NCBI GenBank assembly: GCA_033064195.1
Contig: JARBJD010000146.1
Coordinates: 113,276 to 177,275, forward strand
Direction of reading: 5' to 3'
DNA from: Blattamonas nauphoetae
Lineage: Eukaryota; Preaxostyla; Oxymonadida
Length of the DNA: 64,000 nucleotides
Positions 39,150 to 64,000 of this stretch are shown in pieces. The notes under the pieces are model-generated. The model made no database searches. It saw only the letters and a program-made list of their open reading frames with translations, and had not been told where the DNA came from. The position numbers were made by a program, and so were the translations under genes. Numbering within the stretch: position 1 is the first letter of the stretch; every line of letters starts with the position of its first letter.

Positions 39150-42100
39150 GCCAAAAATGCCGTCTCAGTCCTCGCCGACAACACACTCCATGAAAACATA
39201 TCACTTCCTCAACTTGAGATGTGTTCATCGACCCTTTTGTCCCTTCCCACTGAAGTTGTTGCTGTATTTCTACCGCACCTTGTGTATGTGTTCTCATTCC
39301 TCCGTTTAACGGTCGAACTCTCCATTCATCCTCTCCTGACCATTTCCAGAAAACTCTCCAATACCCAACTTGTTCCGTTGATAGATCAGATTCTGATCGT
39401 CCTATCTCAACGCTCGCTTCTTTTAGCACTCCAAATTTACCTTCTTTTGTCGTGTGAAGAACAAGAGTTCTCCAACAAAAAGGTGTGATTTTCCCATCAG
39501 ATAGTCATTCATCTCCAATTTTCCAAATTAAATACCTTTATTCTGTCATATTCATCAATATTTTCCACATTTCTTTTCAGTCTTTTCAGTTAACAATCGA
39601 CGATCCCAACGCCACAATCATTCCAATCAATCAACGCCTTTCCGCATCGCCTTCACCTCAAGGCTTGTTCTCCCCGTCCCTTTCTGGATCCCCCTCTCAA
39701 TCCACATCCAATCTTGTGGATCTCTCCATCATGTACCCATATCCCGAACGGATCACAGAAAATGCAAACACCCCATCACCCACTCCTCAACTGGTGAAAA
39801 TTCCGGAAATAGCTACAAATAGTGCGTCAATTCCGATTCAATCAACCTTATCTGATGACAAGAACGTCTCCCCGCACATCGCATCAACAGTTCAAGGCGT
39901 GTCCTTCACCCCTCGTTTCACCATCCACACTCCCCCTCGACACCACGCAATCGAAGGCCCATCTTCTTCGCCGCAATCCCATCTGCTTCCGGCCTTCGAA
40001 GGATTACTCTCCGACCAACCTGACACTGATTCATATTTTGTCCGAAACGAGAACCACCCAGGTGCAAAACTGGCCATGCTGCGAATTTTGTTATGTTCTC
40101 AGCTTAAATTGTGGACCCATAGCAGCGAAATGGTTGCAAAACCTCGAAATATGCAGTTGTCGCCAGGGACAATATACTCGGCTTCCTCACCAACCCCAAG
40201 TTTTGACACCGTTCAAAGTGCCACGACAGCGAATACTCTGTCCCATTCTGGAGAACTGATGACCCGGAATCGCTCGCTTACAAGTCCCGCGTTCATGTCG
40301 CCCATCACACTTCAGCCTGTTTCCTCCATCTCCCCGTCCATTTCGACCACATCTGTGACCTCTCAACATCACCACTCGCTCCAAAACCAACCTCATCCGA
40401 ATCTGCTTCTTTCCCCATCACAAGTCTTCCTTCCTTCCGCCTCTCCCTCCCACCAGACGCCTTCCCAACCAATCAAACTATCTCCCGTGAAGCAAGTCTC
40501 GAAGGCCAGTGTGATGGTCGAACTCGTCGAATTTGCAGCCGTTTTGGGCGATCGCGCTGGGTTCTGTCAGCTTCCAAGTTACCTCCAAGCACGCTACCAC
40601 TCATTCCTCCGAAAGTCACTCCAAGTGTCAACCGAGAAGCGGAAACAACGGAAAAAGAATGCTCTGAAAGACAGTTCATCGGTGTCGTCGCTCACAGCCT
40701 TGACTGAGAGCGAAATCTCTTCGCCTGACATGTTGAACGACTCCACATCACACTCTCCTCACTCTGACCACTCGCAGCCAGTCACAAACACTGAATCTCC
40801 ATCCATCTCGTCCTCTCTCGTCCCTCCCGTCTCCGCATTCGACCCAAAAGGCAACGAAAACGACGCTTTTGGGTCGAATCGATGTCTCCAATTTGGTCTC
40901 TCCTTGTTTGTATATGACAGCCTGAAGGATGTGTCTCGGAAGACCCGACTGGAAGCGAGGCCGAAGCGGTATGAGTTGTGTGTTGGTCTGATGAACGAGC
41001 TGAATCGCGAGATCGCTCCGGGATGGATTGGAGATGAGGAAGATGCGGTGAAGAGCGCCATCAAACAGGCAAAGAGAGAGAGGATCAGGCGAACTCAACG
41101 GAAGAAAGAGAAAGAACAGAAGGAGCAGACCGAAGAGGAGGAAGAAGATGTGAGTAAGGAAGAGCAAAACACTCCCTCCAACATTGAAGCGATAGTTCCT
41201 GAACAGTCATCGCCTTCGTTTCTCATCCCGCAGGTGGAAGAAGACTCGCAACACACGCCGTCTGGACACAGCACTCCCACAACGACACCACAGATGGAGA
41301 GTGTCGATCAAGAGGAGAAAGAACAGATGCAGGAGAAGACTGTTGTTGTGGAAGGGCCGACACCTGCACTGACTCCGACACCATCACCACACTCCTCTCC
41401 ATCTCCATCCACACACACATCGACGCAAAATCTATCTCTCTCGCCGTACCCAGAATCCATCTCTCAGACCCCAACTCCTTCACTCAAACCAAAGCCCTCA
41501 TCATCACTCCAGCTCGGACTGAACCTGAAACAGTCGTTCATCCTCCCAACTCAGGATCTGTCCTCTCCACCCCGTTTCTTCATCAGATTCGTCAGTCCTG
41601 AGACACGGGTTTTGAAGAGCAGGGAGAGGGCCCCGATAATGGTGTGGATGGAGACGTGTTCGGGTGAAGATTGGGAAGAGGCGATGAAATTGGCTGATCG
41701 AAAGCGTGCCGAATTCGCAAACCAAGACTCGGAACCACAAATCCACGATTTGGCCGAAATGCAACAATCGCCGACCCAATTCTACACAAAACAGGATCCT
41801 CTCACACCCACTTTCTTTCCCGCGGAGCTTCTGAGGAAGAAGGAGGCCCGCATCTCACTCACTTCCATCTATTCCCGTCTTCCCTCGTGGGGACTCTCCT
41901 CTTTCATTGTGAAGGAGCACGACGACATTCGACAGGATGCTCTGATCTCGTTTCTTCTGTCGCTGATCCTCTCGATTTGCCAGGCGAACGGGGTTGGATT
42001 GTGGTTGAGGCCGTGTGGAGTGATGCCGACATCGCCGATGTCTGGATTGGTTGAGACGTTGTATGACACTGTGTCGATTCATGAAATGAAGGAAGGGAAG

Positions 42101-43250
42101 AAGTGTGGAAAGATGAAGGATGTCGTGGATGAGGTGTTGGGAGGGTTGGAGCAGAGAGATGAAGGAGAGGAGAGCAAGGATCCTCATTTTGTCGCGTTGG
42201 ATGAAAGAGAAGAGGATGTAGATCCCCAAATTGATCCTCTCTCCTCATCGTCCATCCCTCCTCCCTCTCTCACCGACACACATCCACCACCAACCCCACT
42301 CCAACCCGACACTCCAACCATCGACCAACCAATCCAAACTCCAGAAACCGAAAAAGAACTCCGAAGAAGAATGAAGAACGAAGCCAAACAACAACGAAAA
42401 CAGACAAAAGCTGCCGAAAAGCTAGCCAAGCAACGACTCAGCGAAGAGAAGACACTCCAAAAACAAGCTGAGAAGCAAAAAAGGCAGGAAATGAAGCAAG
42501 CAAAGGCTGATCAAAAGACCGCTGACGACGAGCGTCGAAAGAACTGGAAAACGATTTCTGAATTCATTTTTGAAATGTATCCAAACAAGCCGAACGGCGA
42601 CGAAAGCGAGGAACACAAAATTGCGGTCAGGAATTTCATGGAATCGCTGGCTGGGTATTCAATTGCGACGTACATGCTACAGTTGAAAGATCGGTGTGTT
42701 GGATGAGTCATGTTGGTTATTTTGGCTGTTCTGGATTAGAATTATATTCCTAATGTTTCCTTCACTGTTGTCCTTTCTCTCATCTTCTTGTTTTTTCTCT
42801 CCCAGCCACAACGCGAACATTCTCATCTCCTCCACTGGCCATCTCATGCACATCGACTTCGGTTTCGTCCTCACACGAGCTCCAGGCGGCGTCAGTTTTG
42901 AGCAATCCCCATTCAAACTAACAAAGGAGTATGTGTCTGTGCTCGGCGGAAAGAACTCTCCCCTCTACTCCGAATTCCGGCAGCTAGTTATTGATGGGCT
43001 AATGGCCATCCGTGCCAATCGTGACATCTTTGCTCAAGCGATTCTAATCCAGAGCAGAGCCTCTGGATTGCCCTGTTTCTACAAGTCTGGCGATGTGATC
43101 GTTGAGCAGGTGAATCAGAGGCTGTTCTCAAGCCACAGCGATCAGTTCGCCAGAGGGCAGTTTGAGGGATTGGTGAATGTGGCGTATAACAATACCACGA
43201 CTTATGCTTATGATCTGTTCCAATGGTGGCAGAATAAAATCAGATATTGA
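39150..43250 (+). CDS. Phosphatidylinositol 4-kinase, PI4KB-like
   Basis: Predicted exons 39150-39482, 39581-42693 and 42806-43250 (introns 98 and 112 nt). The C-terminal lipid kinase domain is clear: SSFIVKEHDDIRQDALISF with the ATP-binding Lys, the catalytic loop AGYSIATYMLQLKDRHNANI formed across the second intron, and the activation loop start HMHIDFGFVLT, followed by FEQSPFKLTKEY, LPCF and a C-terminal YDLFQWWQNKI. These features match type III PI4-kinases of the PI4KB group, which make PI4P on Golgi membranes. Between the N-lobe and the catalytic loop is an inserted Lys/Glu-rich segment (about 42100-42560) not usual in the family. The N-terminal half is Ser/Pro-rich. There is no good ATG in frame before 39150; the sequence upstream ends in a TCTCTCAG acceptor, so a short first exon (perhaps ATG GAG at 38940) is likely. 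Confidence 0.85.
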
Positions 43251-53599: not shown

Positions 53600-56500
53600 A
53601 TGAATGCGATATTAACGGTTGTTTTGCACACCATCGTCCTCACCAGTCATCCAACAACATTCGAAGAAAATGCTGGACCATCACTCAACCACCTTCTCCT
53701 CACATCATTTGCCGACATTTCTCTGACCTCTTCTTCAAAACATCTTCATCTTTCGACTTCGACATGGACGTCATCGACAATTCTCCTCACTTCGAAAGAT
53801 GTCTCTGTGATTGGATCCGAGCCGACGATAATCACAACCATTTCCGGAAAACAACTTGCAGACAATCACAGAAACCAATGTGATTCTGATTCATCAGCGA
53901 ATTGCGCTTCGTCATCGGTCTTCAGCATCCAAAACACAACACTCTCGTTGGCCTCGCTCACCTTTGATCTCATTTCCGGTATCGTCGTTTTCGTTCCTTT
54001 CATTCTTCCTTTCAGGACCACAAAACCAGGATTCTTGGCATGTGTGCTCTCTGAGCTGGAATTCTCATGTTTTGGCCGAATCGGTGGTCTTCCATGTGGA
54101 TGCAGCTGTCTCGCCGTTCAAACTTGTCCTGTCCACTTTTGGCACGGAATCCGCCTGCTCTCTCACTGTTTCACTTTGCATACTCAAGAATAGTGGAAAC
54201 CAGGTCGGATCAGTTTTGGAGATTGACAATGCCCTGCCTCCCACAGAATCAATCTCCATGTCACTTTCATCCATTCATCTGGACTCAAAAACCGTCACAT
54301 CCAGCAGCGGACTGTCATTTTCGTCATCGCCGTCGGAATATGGCCTCACGAACGATTGCCAGATCCAATCCGTTGTGAGTGATTGCCAGTTCTTCAATCT
54401 CTCCTCCAACCCTGCCCATCCAACATTTCCCAGTTTTGGTTGGCTTCGAGAGAGAATTGTTGGATGTGAAGTGAGAAGTGTGGTGAAGAGTCTGGAAGGA
54501 ACACTGACGACAAGACTGGGAAAGCAAAGTGAATTCTTGATGGAGAACAGCAGTTTGTTGGAATGTGTGAACGAAGAAGAGAGTGAAACAACCAAATCAT
54601 ATGACTCGATTCCCGAAATCACATCATCCGCCCAAAGAATTAATCATGGATCAGAATTCACGCACTATGCCTTCGGAGGATGCACAATCAAAGCAACCAA
54701 CATGACAACCTCCTTTACCCTCATCACACTCAAAACACTTTCGGGAAATGTGGAATTCGTTGGATGTTCATTTGAAGTGGAATGCAACGCCCAACACAAC
54801 ACTCTCATCTCAGCAACAGCCGTTCGAGACAACAAAGTGAAGTGTCTGATCGACACTTGCACATTCAAGTTTTGGAGGGAGACAGAAACATCAACAGGAG
54901 ACAGTCAAATCATCCTGTCCAATTTTCATAAGATCATTGTTGTCTCATCGACCTTCAGCCCTCTCCCATCCAAAAGCTCCTCCGCACGTGCCATCTCCCT
55001 CTCCTCTCCAATTTCTTTTTTATTTTTCTCCAACACTTCACTCACTCGACAAACCTCAAACGGGAATGGAGGAGCTCTCAATTTAGTGTATTCCCTCATC
55101 CGCTTCTTCCACTGCCACTTCGAAGAGAACAAGGCCCTCAACGGCGGAGCATTCCACACTTCGTCGTGCTATCATTATTTATGCTCGTGCACTTTCACGC
55201 GAAACGAAGCGACGAAGTGGGGAGGAGCGATTTATTCGAGCTGGCTCTCTCGTCTTCGCATTTTTGATTGTCATTTCGATGGCAATCAGGCTTCGTGGAA
55301 GTACGAGAACGACCAAACACAACTTGCACATTATCGAGGCAACGACATCTTCGCTTATTCTTCTGCTTGGACTGGAATGGATGCGACAACAGTGTTTGGA
55401 TGCACATCGACATCAGACACGCCAAAATTTGGATTCTATTATTCAAATTCACAGAATGGGGTTCATCCCAACGAGGACATCCTCCTCCCTTCCCCATCTA
55501 GTTCAGCATTTTCAAATGTCTTCTTCGTGGAAGCAGGAGAGAGTGGGTCTTGTTCGGAGGGAGATCCGTGTGGGAGTCTGAGCGCAGCTCTTTCTCAACT
55601 CAGCACAGATCCGTCTCTCATCAACCTCGGAAATGGGATCTTCGAAGAAGGGTCTCTGGACATCTCCAAACCAGTTGAACTTCGAGGTCTCGGTTTCTTT
55701 GTGAACACATCCACGTTCACCACTCTGAAAACGTCGTGTGTTGTGTCAGGTGGTGGAAATGTGACTCTGATGTCGCTCTCATTGAAACCGACGGATTCGA
55801 GTTCGACGATCTTGGCCATGCAGTCGACAAGCCAGTCGTTCCTGTCGAATGTGAAGATCGAATGCATTTCTGGTCATCTCGCCCCTCTCCTCTCGTTCTC
55901 GTCTGGCACTTCGACAGTCCACAGCAGCTGGTTGAGTTCGATTGAGATGGAGAATCATGCAGCGATCGAAATCACCGGAAGCGCATCTGTCACATTCCAC
56001 GCAGCGTGGTTCATGGAAATTGTTCGTGTGAACGGAAATGGAGGGAGTTGCATTGATTCTGCGACATCTGGAGTGATCTCGTTCATCCAGACGAACATGG
56101 CTCATTGTTCATCTTCTGGTCGTGCTGGCTGTTTGGATCTCATTGCTTCATCATCGAACAGCCAAGTCATTGTTTCCAGGATTCTCTTTACGAAGAACAC
56201 CGCCAACACTTCTCTTTCCCATTTCGGGAACGACATCGCCCACACTGGCTTTGTTCCATCCAAAATCAGCACAATCTCGAACTGTCGATCTCTCAGCACT
56301 CTCAACCACGTTCTTATCAACGAAACGTCAAAATCAAACCTTGTTTGTCCAAACCTCTACTTCACTCCATTCGGAATCGACCATCCATTCGCAACAGACT
56401 TTGAGCAGGGTGTTCCGTTGTCGTGGTTCATCGGATTTCAGGAGGAGATTGATGCGCTGATGAAATCCTCAACTGAAGTAACTTTTCGATTTTTAGGAGC

Positions 56501-56707
56501 ACAAACCTTCACACCAATCGTGGTGGCCAAAAAGTCAATCGCCATTTGGTGTGGACTCACCATTCAATTCTACGATCGAATACTTGCGTCTGTCAGAGAT
56601 TCCGGATCCCTCCGATTAAAGGGGGATTTGATGACATTCTCAAACGCTCCGACTGTCACTCCATTTGTTGTTGCTCCAACAGCGGTCAGACTATCTCTTC
56701 AATCTTA

Positions 56708-58727
56708 ACATCCGCACGAAACCCGAAATTCGCACGGAACCCGAAATTGCCAGTGTTCTTTCAATGGAGATTCGATTGTCCAAACTTAATATTTTGCTCC
56801 CTACAGGTCAAATATCATTTTCGTTTTTGTTCAGATGTTAAGCATTTCCTTTTCCGAATGGTGTCGTTTGCTTTGAATTCTAAAATCAAGTTCGATATGA
56901 AGTTGTTTCATTTTGAAAAAGTTGTGGTTCAGATGTCGGACCCTTTTCTCAGTCCATCCAACATTCATCGCATATTGGCCACAGCAGACGTTAGAGCCCT
57001 CCATAATCCAGCAGAAAAAGCAGTGTATATCGTATCAACAGAACATGTCGTCCAAAAAACCCTCGCTCAAGAAATTGGAATCAGTGAAGCTGCCATTTCC
57101 CGTGGAAAATCTTCATTGGATAAAGGACGTGATGTGGGCATTAATGGACATCCACCAAAGCTGAATCGTCACCAATCGCGGGAATTAGAGAATCGGATTA
57201 CTCACCATCTCGCTCATGGTGGCGACGACAGAAAGCCAGTAGTCCTTGGGATTGTATGTCTGATTTTCATTTCTATGGTTCAGGCTAATAAATACTACGA
57301 AGAGATCGAACCAGAAGAACAGCAAACGAATCCCCTCAACAGACAATGGCTCGACAGATGGTTGACAAAGTCCTCCTGTTTCCATGGATCAACACCAACC
57401 ATACTTGAAAAGGCCAGAATCGACGCCAGTACCGAGAGTAACATGTGTGCCTGGATGGAACTTCTGACTGAAACGGTGACGAAGTATCAAATCAAACCTG
57501 AATTTTTGTTCAACTTTGACGAAACGTCACTAAGAATCAACGTGGATGACAAAACGATTCGAGTGCATCCGAAAACTGAGCCGCCACCAATGATTTCCGA
57601 TGTTGCCCGCGTTGCAAACGCATCCCTTCTCGTGACCGTGTGCGCTGATGGATCGTCCATCACACCGCAACTCCTCTGGCCAACGAAAAGTCCTGTGGCC
57701 GAGTTTTCAAATTTAAAAACATTCAACATTGATTGTGCATATCAGGGCGTCGGATGGTCAAACGGGTCCATCTTCGAAGGATACATGAAAAACATTGTTT
57801 TTCCAGCGATCGCCTCCAAAAGAACGAAAAAAACTAAAAATGAAATAGCACTTCTCCTCCTAGACGGCCATGCCTCTCATAACAATCCTGACGTTCTTCA
57901 AATTGCAGATGAATGCCGAATCATGGTGATGGGTCTTCCACCTCACACCACCCATCTGACCCAACCTCTCGATAGGTGGGTCTTCGCAAGACTGAAAAAC
58001 TCGCTCAGAGCAGAATTCTGCCCTCCTTCTTCTCAATCAATCCTAGCTTATCGCACAGAATTAGCACGGGTCCTCCCGATCGCCATCTCAAACGCTTTTC
58101 ATCCGCCAACGATATTAGCATCGTTTCGTGCAGCGGGTGTGCATCCACTATGTTTATCAACACTTTTGCACGCTCTGTCGAAAACTAGGAAATCAAAGAT
58201 CTCTGATCTCTCGATCCTGATCAAGGAAAAACAAGACCGGCTCTCCCCTCCCGAATCACCTGCGGCACCATCGCAACCATCCTCAATTGGGCGAATATAC
58301 ACAACTCAACAATCACTTCCAAAGGCAGCCAATTCTCCAACTATAGACCAATATTTTCGTCCTCGATCTTTCGTCACGTCACAATTTCGACCACAGAAAA
58401 CAAAACGACAAACAGCAGGATCAGATCCTATTCAATCACAAAAAACAGATGAATTAACCCAGTTAGACCGCTTGAGACATGAGTACCGAGTGGGGAATGT
58501 GAGAGTTCTTAGAGATGATTGAGAATGATTTTTCTTGTCTGATTTCACAATTATAGCTAAATTTCAACTCTTTTCTGAATTAAATGACCCTGCTACACTT
58601 CTAGGTTTTCTGAAGAATCATCAATGTCGAAGAATAGGGTGAAATGTTCAAAGTAATTGATATGGGTGAATTCGGCCACGAGACTCGATTTCGGGTAACG
58701 TGCCGATTTCGGGTTTCGTGCGGATGT
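56708..58727 (+). mobile_element. 2020-bp autonomous pogo/Tigger-type transposon
   Basis: The terminal inverted repeats start ACATCCGCACGAAACCCGAA and match for about 23 bp. Inside each end the motif CGCACGAAACCCGAAAT is repeated directly (CGCACGGAACCCGAAAT on the left, GGCACGTTACCCGAAAT on the right). A TA target duplication is at 56706-56707 and 58728-58729. It encodes one transposase. The ends are well matched and the gene is intact, so the element may be young and active. Confidence 0.95.
56858..58522 (+). CDS. DDE transposase, pogo/CENP-B-like family
   Basis: About 545 aa if a 30-nt GT-AG intron (57254-57283) is removed; without removal the frame is still open. The start is ATG 56858 or, more likely, ATG 56933 (MSDPFLSPSNIHRIL). 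An N-terminal helix-turn-helix of Psq type follows (VVQKTLAQEIGISEAAISRG). The catalytic DDE domain shows FNFDETSLRI with the first Asp, LLLLDGHASHNNPD with the second, and HTTHLTQPLDRWVF with the third, in the D-D-D arrangement of the DDE_1/pogo group. It would cut at the terminal repeats and insert at TA. The C-terminal 110 residues are basic and polar and may bind DNA. Confidence 0.9.
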   Translation: MVSFALNSKIKFDMKLFHFEKVVVQMSDPFLSPSNIHRILATADVRALHNPAEKAVYIVSTEHVVQKTLAQEIGISEAAISRGKSSLDKGRDVGINGHPPKLNRHQSRELENRITHHLAHGGDDRKPVVLGIVCLIFISMVQANKYYEEIEPEEQQTNPLNRQWLDRWLTKSSCFHGSTPTILEKARIDASTESNMCAWMELLTETVTKYQIKPEFLFNFDETSLRINVDDKTIRVHPKTEPPPMISDVARVANASLLVTVCADGSSITPQLLWPTKSPVAEFSNLKTFNIDCAYQGVGWSNGSIFEGYMKNIVFPAIASKRTKKTKNEIALLLLDGHASHNNPDVLQIADECRIMVMGLPPHTTHLTQPLDRWVFARLKNSLRAEFCPPSSQSILAYRTELARVLPIAISNAFHPPTILASFRAAGVHPLCLSTLLHALSKTRKSKISDLSILIKEKQDRLSPPESPAAPSQPSSIGRIYTTQQSLPKAANSPTIDQYFRPRSFVTSQFRPQKTKRQTAGSDPIQSQKTDELTQLDRLRHEYRVGNVRVLRDD

Positions 58728-60219
58728 TACTCCATCACCTTTTCAGGATCTCAGCAGAACGTCCCATTCATCCAGTGCAACGGAGGGATACTCATTTTTG
58801 AAATTGTGACATTCTCGACACCATCTGGTCTGATCTTGACTGGATGCTCGTTGATGGAATGCTCGGCAACGAGTGTCATTTTCACTGCCTCGTCGATCGA
58901 GAATGTGACGTCTGACCGAGACGGAGCGGTGTTCCACGCAACAAACTGTTCATTCAAAAGTGAGAGCTCGTCGTTCAAGAAATGCCGAGCGAGAAATGGA
59001 GGAGCAGTGGCGATTGAGCTGTCTGGCTCGAAGACGATTCTGATCACACACGAAAGCACATCAGCCTTCGCCACGTCATTCTCAGGATGTGAGGCAGTTG
59101 GAGACAGTTCAGGCGGATCGAACTCGCTGGGAAGAGGAGGAGCATTGTTCGTTTCTGGGACGTCGACTCACTCGACACCCATCCTCTTCTTCAGCTCGTC
59201 AACCAACCACGCTCGATTTGAAGGAAACATTGCTGATCTGGGAATGGACCTCTTCATCACGTCAGATCTGTTCAACGGAAAAGACACAATTGCGATCGAT
59301 TCTTTTCGTGGTGGTTCGATGAGTCCTGATCACCACGTCGCGATTGAAGACCGTCCATCGTCTGATTCGGAGTGGATTGGTCTGCTGATCCCAACACCGA
59401 AAGTGTCAGTGAATGGATCAGTCACAGAAATCATGACAGGAAAGAGTGGACAAGACAATGAGAGCTGCAAATGGACATCGACATTCTGTGCGACACTCGG
59501 GTATGGAATCAAGCATCTGACGAAGAAATATGCATCTGGGGAGCTTTTCCCGCAGTCGATCCAATTTGTGTGGAACATGACATACAACGAGACAGAAGTG
59601 GTTGTGAACAATCAGGATGTGTCTGTGAGTGGGACAACAACGACGAATGCGAAGACAGCAAAAGTTCTTCGGACGATTGTGGAGATTGTGGGATCGACAC
59701 CAGCATTGTCGCTCTTCACAATCAAGAACCATTCCAAACTGTCAGTCTCTGGACTCGATCTTCGTGCGATCGCGAAGTGTGGGTTGTTCGATTTGGAGGC
59801 GGATGGAGATTGTCTGATTGTGTCTGATGTTGGTGTGGTGTGCGCAGATGGGACAGAATATTCGAAGGCGTTGATCAAATCGAGTGGTCGACCAATTTTG
59901 ATTGATTCGTGCACGTTCAACACATCGAATGGAGGACAAGCGACCAGGGCTTTCCACCCATGGAGCCGACTTGCTCAGTTTGTTCAGATTTAAGATTTTT
60001 CATGTTGATATAATTCTGACGAACATTTTCCTTGGAGCCTTTGTCATAACTTCATCTTGGTGGAGAGATCCGGCTTTGATCACATCCCCATACTTTTCTC
60101 AGATATTCCATTCTTGCTCTTTTCACATTCTAGTCACACCACAATCAGATGTAGATTCATGAAGTGATTTAAGAGAAATTGCTGGAAAACAATGTGTGAG
60201 GAAGTGGATACGAGAAGAT

Positions 60220-61725
60220 TGGGAGTGGGAGCGGACGGAGTCGATGATGATCGAGAGCGGGAGCGGACGGAGACGATGACGATCGTGAGTGGAAGCGGAC
60301 GGAGTCGATGATCGTGAGTGGAAGCGGACGGAGACGGTGACGATCGTGTGCGGGAGCGGACGGAGTCGACGATGATCGTGTGTGGGAGCGGACGGAGTCG
60401 ATGATGATCGTGAGTGGGAGCGGACGGAGTCGATGATGATCGTGTGGGAGCGGACGGAGTCGATGATGATCGTGTGTGGGAGCGGACGGAGTCGATGATG
60501 ATCGTGTGGGAGCGGACGGAGTCGATGATGATCGTGAGTGGGAGCGGACGGAGTCGATGATGATCGTGTGTGGGAGCGGACGGAGTCGATGATGATCGTG
60601 TGTGGGAGCGGACGGAGTCGATGATGATCGTGAGTGGGAGCGGACGGAGTCGATGATGATCGTGTGTGGGAGCGGACGGAGTCGATGATGATCGTGAGTG
60701 GGAGCGGACGGAGTCGATGATGATCGTGTGTGGGAGCGGACGGAGTCGATGATGATCGTGTGTGGGAGCAGACGGAGTCGATGATGATCGTGAGTGGGAG
60801 CGGACGGAGACGACGACGATCGTGAGTGGGAGCGGACGGAGTCGATGATGATCGTGAGTGGGAGCGGACGGAGACGACGACGATCGTGAGTGGGAGCGGA
60901 CGGAGTCGATGATGATCGTGTGTGGGAGCGGACGGAGACGACGACGATCGTGAGTGGGAGCGTACGGAGTCGATGATGATCGTGAGTGGGAGCGGACGGA
61001 GACGACGACGATCGTGAGTGGGAGCGGACGGAGTCGATGATGATCGTGAGTGGGAGCGGACGGAGACGACGACGATCGTGAGTGGGAGCGGACGGAGTCG
61101 ATGATGATCGTGTGTGGGAGCGGACGGAGACGACGACGATCGTGAGTGGGAGCGGACGGGGTCGATGATGATCGTGAGTGGGAGCGGACGGAGTCGATGA
61201 TGATCGTGTGGGAGCGGACGGAGTCGATGATGATCGAGTGTGGGAGCGGACGGAGACGACGACGATCGTGAGTGGGAGCGTACGGAGTCGATGATGATCG
61301 TGAGTGGGAGCGGACGGAGACGACGACGATCGTGAGTGGGAGCGGACGGAGTCGATGATGATCGTGTGTGGGAGCGGACGGAGACGACGACGATCGTGAG
61401 TGGGAGCGTACGGAGTCGATGATGATCGTGAGTGGGAGCGGACGGAGACGACGACGATCGTGAGTGGGAGCGGACGGAGTCGATGATGATCGTGAGTGGG
61501 AGCGGACGGAGACGACGACGATCGTGAGTGGGAGCGGACGGAGTCGATGATGATCGTGTGTGGGAGCGGACGGAGTCGATGATGATCGTGAGTGGGAGTG
61601 GACGGAGACGACGACGATCGTGAGTGGGAGCGGACGGAGACGACGACGATCGTGAGTGGGAGTGGACGGAGACGATGATCGTGGGTGGGAGTGGACGGGG
61701 TCGATGATCGTGGGTGGGAGATGGA
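60220..61725. repeat. 32-bp minisatellite, about 45 copies
   Basis: The core AGTGGGAGCGGACGGAGTCG plus ATGATGATCGTG repeats nearly perfectly, with variants that replace GTCGATGATG by GACGACGACG, or drop three bases. Variant units alternate in patches, a higher-order structure. On the minus strand no unit has a stop codon in any frame, which creates a 600-codon open frame without biological meaning. Confidence 0.95.
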
Positions 61726-62008
61726 GTGAGATGATGATAGTGAGCGGGAGATGGAGGGAGATGATGAGGCAGTCACATTCGATCTCAACGGTGAAGTCAT
61801 TCGATATCTCGCTGTCTCATCGCCCTTCCTGTGGAGAGATCGCACGACGTTGTGAATGACGGCGAGATTGCATTGGACAGTTTCGACTCCACAACCTATT
61901 CTGTGTTCTGACAAAGCCCTTCCATCATGTCGAGTCGGAGTGAGGGGTGAGACTGCCGAGATGCATCTGTACAAAGAATCACAAAAGAGAAAGAAGGACG
62001 AAGCGTCA

Positions 62009-63651
62009 CTATCGCGACTCTCTCCCTCCACCCGAAGCGGCACGCTCATCATCACTACGTCCTCTTTCCAAAAGCAGCCCGAACAGCTTTTGGATCACAC
62101 CACGTCGAGCAGCGAGCGTTTGATGGAAGTGTTGGCGTGTTTGACAGACGATCACACATTTGTGGCATCGTCCAATTGCATGACAATCGCTCTGATCCTG
62201 CACCTCGGCCACTATCCGCACAATGATCTCGCCTGGTCCCATCTGGCAGATCGCTGGGGCCTCAGAGACGATGTTGTCCAAATTGAAAGAATCTGACCGC
62301 GTGTCGGTTTGTGCGTCCTTCCTCTGTTTCTCCTTTAGAGCCTCTTCTAGTGGGGCGACCGCTGTGTCAGCAAGTGTTTTCAGAACGGAAACAATGAATA
62401 ACGACACGATCGCGTGGAGAGTGATCACACAAGTGGACTGTACGGCTGATTCCGTTTCAGCTCCCTCCTCATTTCCATCTATCTTATCCATAGTATGCGA
62501 GGGAGACGGAGCAGAGTGAATTAATGGGTACAGCGTAGCCTTCCTCTAAAGGTGTGTCTGCTGCTTGTATATTGCACGCCGATCGTGGGCTGTTCAGAAG
62601 CACCACTCGCTCCATGCCGCTGTGGCCTTCTCCAGCTTGCTTGTGGTTTGATTCTGAATCAGAGTCTGAGGATGTGTTGGAGTCGGCCTCGCGTTGCATC
62701 AGAATCGAATAGCACACATGCGCCAGACACATCCGCTGCTTCTGTCCTCCGCTTAACTTTCGCCTGTGACCGCCAACGAACGTGTTCAGTCCGTCGGGCT
62801 TCGCTTTTTCATCCGTGTTGAAGCAGCATGCACGCACCACACACTCCAGCCTCGTCTTGTCCAACTCTGATCCATATAGATTGATGCTTCGCAGTGACGT
62901 GTCCTGCACAAATGGATCCTGTGGCATGAGCACGGCTTGGTCACCCACAAACCTTCTTCCTCCCCACGCGTCGTTTAGCCCTGTGAGCGCCGACAGAAGC
63001 AGTGGCTTCCCTCATCCCAACGTCCCTACCAGCGCGCAGTATTCCCCGTGATTCAATGTCAGAGTGTTGTGTGGCATAGTTGATGGTGACGGAGTGTAGT
63101 GGTAGAGACCGAGAAGAGGAACGGAGTCGAGTGAGGAAAGTTGGAGTTGTGAAGGATCAACCGAATTGTTATCTGGAATCCACGTGTTGTCATCATCGTC
63201 CTTCTTCATAAACGTCTTCAGACCATTCCACAAGACGAATGGGAGTCGTTTTGGGCATTGTTTCGAAGATAATCACGTCGACGAAGGGGATTGCATTACT
63301 GCGTGCAGGCGGTAGCTGGGGATCAGATTTTCTCGAATCTCAAGATTTTCATACGTTGTTGCGATAATTGATCAGATTTCACCTCAAGTGCATCATGTGA
63401 GCGAATAATTCGTGAAAGTTGTTGAAACATCATCATGTCACGACACGATCTGATGATATACGTTTGGTCGACTAGACAGTCAATTCCTGATCTTTTTCCA
63501 TTCGATTTGCAGTTCTGCACGGTGATTTACTCCATTAATTCCAGTTTTCTCAAGCTGAAAAAGAGGGATCCTCCTTCTGCGTGGGTGTCTTAGTCTGTCC
63601 CTTCGATGTTGTAGAGGGTGCAGAACTTGATTGCATAGATGCAGACAGCAT
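62009..63651 (-). pseudogene. Dead ABCC/MRP-type ABC transporter fragment
   Basis: The minus strand holds parts of a nucleotide-binding domain in order. HGEYCALVGTLG is followed by a TGA and GKPLLLSAL, so the Walker A loop is cut by a stop. Then come QAVLMPQDPFVQDTSLRSIN, the signature RKLSGGQKQRMCLAHVCYS, and VVLLNSPRSACNIQAAD, in which the Walker B Asp is Asn. These motifs match NBD1 of ABCC proteins. Another frame change lies near 62500, after which a membrane-type segment (VITLHAIVSLFIVSVLKTL) fits the second membrane domain. A short N-terminal piece (MLSASMQSSSAPSTTSKGQT) begins at 63651 and is separated by decayed sequence. The gene cannot make an active transporter. Confidence 0.8.
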
Positions 63652-64000
63652 TTTACCGGTTACAGCCGTTCGTACAACATGTTAACTTCCAGTTAGTGAC
63701 GTCGAACCCGCTTTGTCGGGCTGAGGTTTAGATGACTGCACAATCCGGACAGATGACATCAACATCGTCCAAATGGGACGTGATGATGTTGATTCAGTAT
63801 TTTAAACGAGTGAACTAGAGAATCGGAACAGAGTTTGTTGGACATGGTGTTCAAGAAAGGGTCATTAGTATTACCACTCCTCCACTGTCTGGTGTGAAGG
63901 CGGTCATCCACCCATCCAAAAAGTTGCGTGTTCTCCAGTGTAGCAGATCCACTGCTCCCAAATCAGCATTGTCTTGGTCAAGTGAAGAGGGAGAGCTGAG
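63652..64000. other. Window end, no gene recognised
   Basis: The last 349 bp contain no long open frame and no recognised repeat. They may be the upstream region of the decayed transporter. Confidence 0.35.

Follow-up and report, generated by a model that had tools for sequence, protein, structure and literature searches.

A pogo-like transposon and a second repeat in a beta-helix family gene of Blattamonas nauphoetae

Blattamonas nauphoetae is an oxymonad that lives in the cockroach gut. In the window analysed here, a stretch of 64,000 nucleotides whose end is also the end of its contig, a DNA transposon lies between two pieces of one coding sequence, and the locus raises the question of whether the element has simply disabled a gene or acts as a reversible interruption whose departure would return that gene to service. 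Our analysis makes it very probable that a recently moved pogo-like element inserted at a TA in exon 2 of a beta-helix family member, and that this copy also breaks off at about 59945, where a second repeat takes over.

The element, its transposase and its copies

The transposon occupies 56708..58727 on the forward strand, 2,020 bp as delimited by comparison of full-length genome copies, and its termini read ACATCC...GGATGT. The terminal inverted repeats of 40 bp each (left, 56708..56747, forward strand; right, 58688..58727, reverse strand) match one another at 36 of 40 positions, perfectly so over the outer 22. Their pattern recurs at 39 genome sites with up to 3 mismatches, and the reversed control recurs at none. 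Copies of the target-site TA lie immediately outside the repeats (56706..56707 on the left, 58728..58729 on the right), as TA does at both ends of all 11 full-length copies. The preliminary description of this DNA had reported a 2020-bp element with matched terminal repeats and a TA duplication, all of which hold, and its span of 56706-58729 is the element plus both TA copies. Elsewhere in the genome, about 1 kb separates a pair of element ends with terminal repeats of this type (G000:C312:199782-200818), which possibly mark a shortened non-autonomous relative.

The transposase claimed beforehand to be an intact DDE enzyme is confirmed as an intact frame of 554 aa (56858..58522, forward strand), recognized by a Pfam match to DDE_1 (PF03184, E 3.6e-14) and by alignment. 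In the alignment of 11 sequences the triad D221/D336/D372 is invariant; its codons lie within the frame at 57518-57520, 57863-57865 and 57971-57973 on the forward strand, and the spacing of 35 residues between the second and third aspartates defines a DD35D core. In structure, the core resembles Mos1 and Sleeping Beauty, in a model whose confidence is low overall (mean pLDDT 64.1) and mostly above 80 at residues 191-440, except 221-260. Foldseek returned Mos1 as the best match (E 8.5e-7); superposition of the whole chain is poor (rmsd 19.5), and the catalytic domain of Mos1 alone aligns to the model with a TM-score of 0.66 (on target) and an rmsd of 4.7. The N-terminal part is helical in this low-confidence model, and the search for a DNA-binding domain gave no Pfam match reaching the cut-off, the sole candidate being a sub-threshold Trp_repressor at residues 61-92 (E 0.043). 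Sequence comparison further suggests a 30-nt in-frame intron-like segment within the transposase gene (57254..57283, forward strand, GTATG...TTCAG), of which the relative L050 keeps the ends around a divergent interior and L049 reads GAATG, with the GT lost.

Judged by its domain, triad, TA and terminal repeats, the element is pogo-like and belongs to an already known kind of transposon. It resembles the pogo superfamily (IS630-Tc1-mariner) in its DDE_1 transposase, DD35D spacing and TA duplication, and DD35D is common to the element, Passer and Fot/Fot-like transposons. Its size of 2.0 kb, its transposase length and its 40-bp terminal repeats fall inside the pogo ranges given in the available part of PMC7386202, which puts the triad spacing of pogo at DD29-59D. 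In many Fot/Fot-like elements the duplicated target is TAA or TAAA. It departs from the superfamily in that its transposase is 29% identical to the best match among the 13 proteins that a protein search yielded, and in that its N-terminal DNA-binding domain stays below Pfam cut-offs. The N-terminal HTH types of pogo comprise CENP-B_N, psq, Tc5, ABP1 and BrkDBD.

Matched against the genome, a 1,001-base probe from the element produced 33 rows, a count that includes hits of one terminal repeat on the other. Four of the 11 full-length copies compared, the window copy among them, are identical over 2,020 bp, and six further copies differ by 0-2 substitutions: L007 by 1, and L002, L003, L008, L045 and L046 by 0-2 together with indels. 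The remaining copy, L047, differs by 51 substitutions but is free of indels. An ordinary pogo-like transposon has thus multiplied here in a recent burst, and the near-identity of 10 of the 11 copies bears out the earlier view that the insertion is recent, with the reservation that short-read polishing of repeats may inflate such identity or homogenise young copies (the assembly was polished with Pilon, according to the available text of PMC10703272). Across all element copies, 28 of 29 indels fall in homopolymers. Decay of L045 and L046, which carry 11 and 13 indels, was considered and rejected because all of these lie in homopolymers and look like long-read error, perhaps together with an effect of polishing; the two copies share an identical 300-base right flank and are perhaps not independent insertions.

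When a start motif is included in the frame test, the 554-aa frame is kept in five of the 11 copies (the window copy, L001, L004, L006 and L007); L047 is without this motif, yet the genome search finds it open across all 554 residues. With 78 of 861 candidates scored, a genome search with the transposase gave at least 82 match rows; identity is 30-40% in 57 of these rows, and we conclude from this number that related pogo-like elements are common in the genome. The element itself is possibly mobile still in this oxymonad. Among the 11 full-length copies no preference for the beta-helix family was seen. Five of them (L001, L003, L005, which is the window copy, L006 and L007) sit in joint open frames of at least 200 codons. 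The left flank of the near-identical copy L003, on contig C188, is a different gene family with a long open frame, and its relatives are 57-67% identical across most of the left piece; L007 sits in a reverse transcriptase frame, and the flank pieces of L001, L003 and L006 have no Pfam match. Judged by title and abstract opening, none of the papers listed from a partial body of literature appears to deal with oxymonad transposons.

The interrupted gene and its second break

The host gene lies on the forward strand and begins with an exon of 126 codons and 1 base (53600..53978), delimited by its frame and by alignment with four relatives, that encodes a hydrophobic N-terminus, a probable signal peptide by hydropathy only. 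An intron-like segment of 37 nt follows (53979..54015, forward strand, GTATCG...TTTCAG). Four of the five relatives compared carry it at a length of 36-37 nt, and C122 lacks it. In three of these four its interior is less conserved than either flanking exon, and in one it is as conserved as the upstream exon. Decay was entertained as the cause of the frame change near 54000 and rejected, since this segment accounts for the shift. Exon 2 then encodes the left part of the ectodomain (54016..56707, forward strand), with 896 codons open to 56705 as defined by the frame and by relatives, and the right part resumes at 58728..59945 on the same strand, where DNA homology to close relatives supports it. 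That the split gene is a beta-helix gene, as had been proposed, agrees with a Pfam match to Chlam_PMP (PF02415, E 6e-9) in the 816-aa frame 54258-56705 and with a model of the right ectodomain piece as a right-handed beta-helix (pLDDT 88.8) that qualifies as a parallel beta-helix fold. A plain Foldseek search with the ectodomain piece returned nothing at E <= 0.001.

On the left, the host frame runs to ...RLSLQS and a stop at 56706-56708, and the right frame starts YSITFSG. The preliminary description had suggested looking for family members that are continuous across this junction, and such members are abundant. We fetched 20 family places besides the window and compared 19 distinct loci, leaving out L031, whose match begins at residue 31 of the right piece. 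With the left and right pieces searched apart, 16 of these 19 loci show a single frame over the empty site at the expected junction spacing, and in L015 and L019 the two pieces abut exactly. The exceptions are L013, with a frame shift, L018, with no right-hand match, and L039, with a broken frame. Because 16 of 19 paralogue loci run in one frame over the site, we conclude that the insertion split a coding sequence at one TA. It is true, as had been stated, that removing the element with one TA restores the frame exactly, but this holds for any insertion that duplicates its target and provides no evidence on excision. At G000:C40:135146-143264, which includes L018 and L031, about 6.4 kb separates the left and right parts of a family gene on one strand, close to the corresponding part of the gene; this is perhaps a second interrupted copy.

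The gene had further been given a length of 4.3 kb, but the 3' side of the locus shows that it is not complete. From 59946 to the contig end (59946..64000, forward strand) the window consists of another dispersed repeat, unrelated to the first, which cuts the host gene short at a sharp left edge, AGGGCTTTCCACCC at 59946, so that what remains is a 3'-truncated piece of a gene of about 10 kb. Allowing up to 2 mismatches, this edge occurs at 66 genome sites, including 19 exact ones, and the reversed control occurs at none; the sequence from 59946 on is found at 40 or more genome places, the window included (40 of 77 candidates scored). Over 60211-64000 the repeat is 97% identical to L058, and it contains a 32-bp minisatellite of 46.8 units (60223..61708, forward strand). 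DNA homology of the host to its close relatives ends at 59944, the right frame stops at 59993, and a tblastn match reaching 59972 represents a short extension into the second repeat. The second break thus explains both the stop at 59993 and the gene length given in the preliminary description.

Measured against three relatives, the host copy is missing 1,761 to 2,123 residues, including the membrane helix and the kinase-like tail. The rest of the gene could be lost or could lie beyond the contig end. Among close tail matches (77% or more), an informal inspection of coordinates made no orphan 3' part of the host gene evident, and inspection of the edge sites of the second repeat and of L057-L059 revealed no terminal-repeat partner at a fixed distance. 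The L058 copy of this repeat has a reverse-strand frame in which an ABC-transporter-like LSGGQ was noted by eye.

Origin of the interrupted copy

In the sequence of events that we propose, the transposase, with its DD35D core and a putative HTH-type N-terminal part, would bind the 40-bp terminal repeats, excise the element and paste it at a TA, which would be duplicated. The insertion created a stop codon where the left host flank meets the element, truncating the host product, and the second dispersed repeat cuts the host copy at about 59945 as well, leaving a freshly disabled or truncated family member. This proposal starts from features present in the assembly, namely the structure of the element, its TA duplications, the near-identity of its copies, the intact frame, the continuity of paralogues and the second break, and it carries with it a presumed catalytic activity of the transposase and a presumed loss of function of the host.

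The locus could instead represent a switchable surface gene, with intact and disrupted alleles coexisting and precise excision restoring expression, and the youth of the element, its intact transposase and host coding pieces free of stops are in keeping with this idea. We consider it very unlikely, given that the assembly yielded no empty allele: the only full match to the left flank there is the flank itself, and the next best match is a paralogue at 83% DNA identity. Excision of Passer, a member of the pogo family, leaves footprints of 0-4 bp as reported in the portion of PMC9976928 available; clean excision is therefore possible, not the rule. Moreover, the copy is cut at about 59945 anyway, so that loss of the element alone would give no full-length receptor. 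Splicing of the element from RNA as an intron, which would leave the host product unaffected, draws on the short introns that are likely in the host family and in the transposase and on a TTCAG just to the right of the insertion, at 58742. Against it, the termini of the element are not GT-AG, 56608-56858 contains no GTA-N-G donor, the two introns proposed here are 30 and 37 nt and not 2 kb, and the right flank at the junction is coding in relatives, all of which make splicing extremely improbable.

The preferred reading, insertion of a recently moved pogo-like element into a family member that was also cut by a second repeat, includes an order of events that we infer, and either break may have come first. 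Arrival of the second repeat before the transposon, into what would then have been a truncated, dead copy, has in our estimation somewhat less than an even chance, and would refine this reading rather than exclude it. The missing 3' part of the gene and the many near-identical copies of the second repeat speak for such an order. On the other side, the absence of stops from 3,420 bp implies that any dead period was probably short, and one copy cannot reveal the order of two young events.

The coding pieces themselves probably remained under constraint until recently. They contain no stop codon in 3,420 bp, and in neutral simulations at 0.079 substitutions per site, the length of the terminal tree branch of the window copy, a mean of 8.9 stops arose and a fraction of 0.001 of 1,000 runs had none; for simulated branches of 0.02 and 0.01 the stop-free fraction was 0.094 and 0.307. 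The third-position share of private changes, 0.37 in the window copy, lies inside the relatives' range of 0.00-0.62, a measure that does not separate constrained from relaxed copies and for which C40 is probably misaligned or frame-shifted. The earlier statement that neither side has decayed is accordingly correct as regards stops, but on the right the gene breaks off at about 59945 and is without its membrane helix and kinase-like tail.

A family of giant beta-helix proteins

Intact relatives of the host gene occur on contigs C206, C54 and C122 (L041:906-9998, L054:2886-9998 and L043-L044) and encode giant single-pass proteins with frames of 3,241-3,559 aa. They look like giant receptors, with a probable signal peptide, a beta-helix ectodomain, one membrane helix and a kinase-like tail without HRD, as assigned by hydropathy and by Pfam, the latter on two relatives (C206 and C54). 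The tail has at least 131 matches in the genome (131 of 1,236 candidates scored), and relatives of the family are also present in Monocercomonoides exilis. In a motif search of the last 450 residues of 57 family proteins, H[RG]D was found in none, DFG in one and a VAIK-like motif in four, and the similarity of the tail to TAK1 and ILK is confined to the C-lobe.

In its predicted ectodomain, membrane helix and kinase-like C-lobe the family resembles receptor-type kinases and pseudokinases; its best sequence matches include TAK1, ILK, PTK7 and MLKL. It differs from them in the absence of H[RG]D from the last 450 residues (0/57) and in a beta-helix ectodomain of about 3,000 aa. With Chlamydia-type Pmp proteins it has in common the PF02415 repeat and the modelled right-handed beta-helix. 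The Chlamydia Pmps are autotransporters, whereas in the host family the beta-helix forms the ectodomain of giant proteins that cross the membrane once and end in a kinase-like tail. We tentatively propose that these proteins form an apparently undescribed oxymonad receptor class, with a beta-helix ectodomain of about 3,000 residues and a kinase-like tail devoid of its catalytic motifs, in some 100 or more Blattamonas copies and also in Monocercomonoides, in which insertions of young transposons and other repeats would continually retire members and reshape the surface repertoire. No paper on this receptor family was found among titles and abstract openings of a partial literature, and the available text of PMC10703272 contains none of the terms surface, beta-helix and polymorphic membrane, and mentions kinase twice, in unrelated contexts. 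If real as read, this would mean that giant beta-helix receptors with kinase-like, apparently non-catalytic tails are present in very large numbers in an amitochondriate gut protist, and the expanded host family is more notable than the transposon itself.

The window also contains, at 39731-42706, a frame with a PI3/PI4-kinase domain (E 7.1e-14). Finally, the two very short intron-like segments described above (37 nt in the host gene and 30 nt in the transposase) both have GTAT...TTCAG ends.
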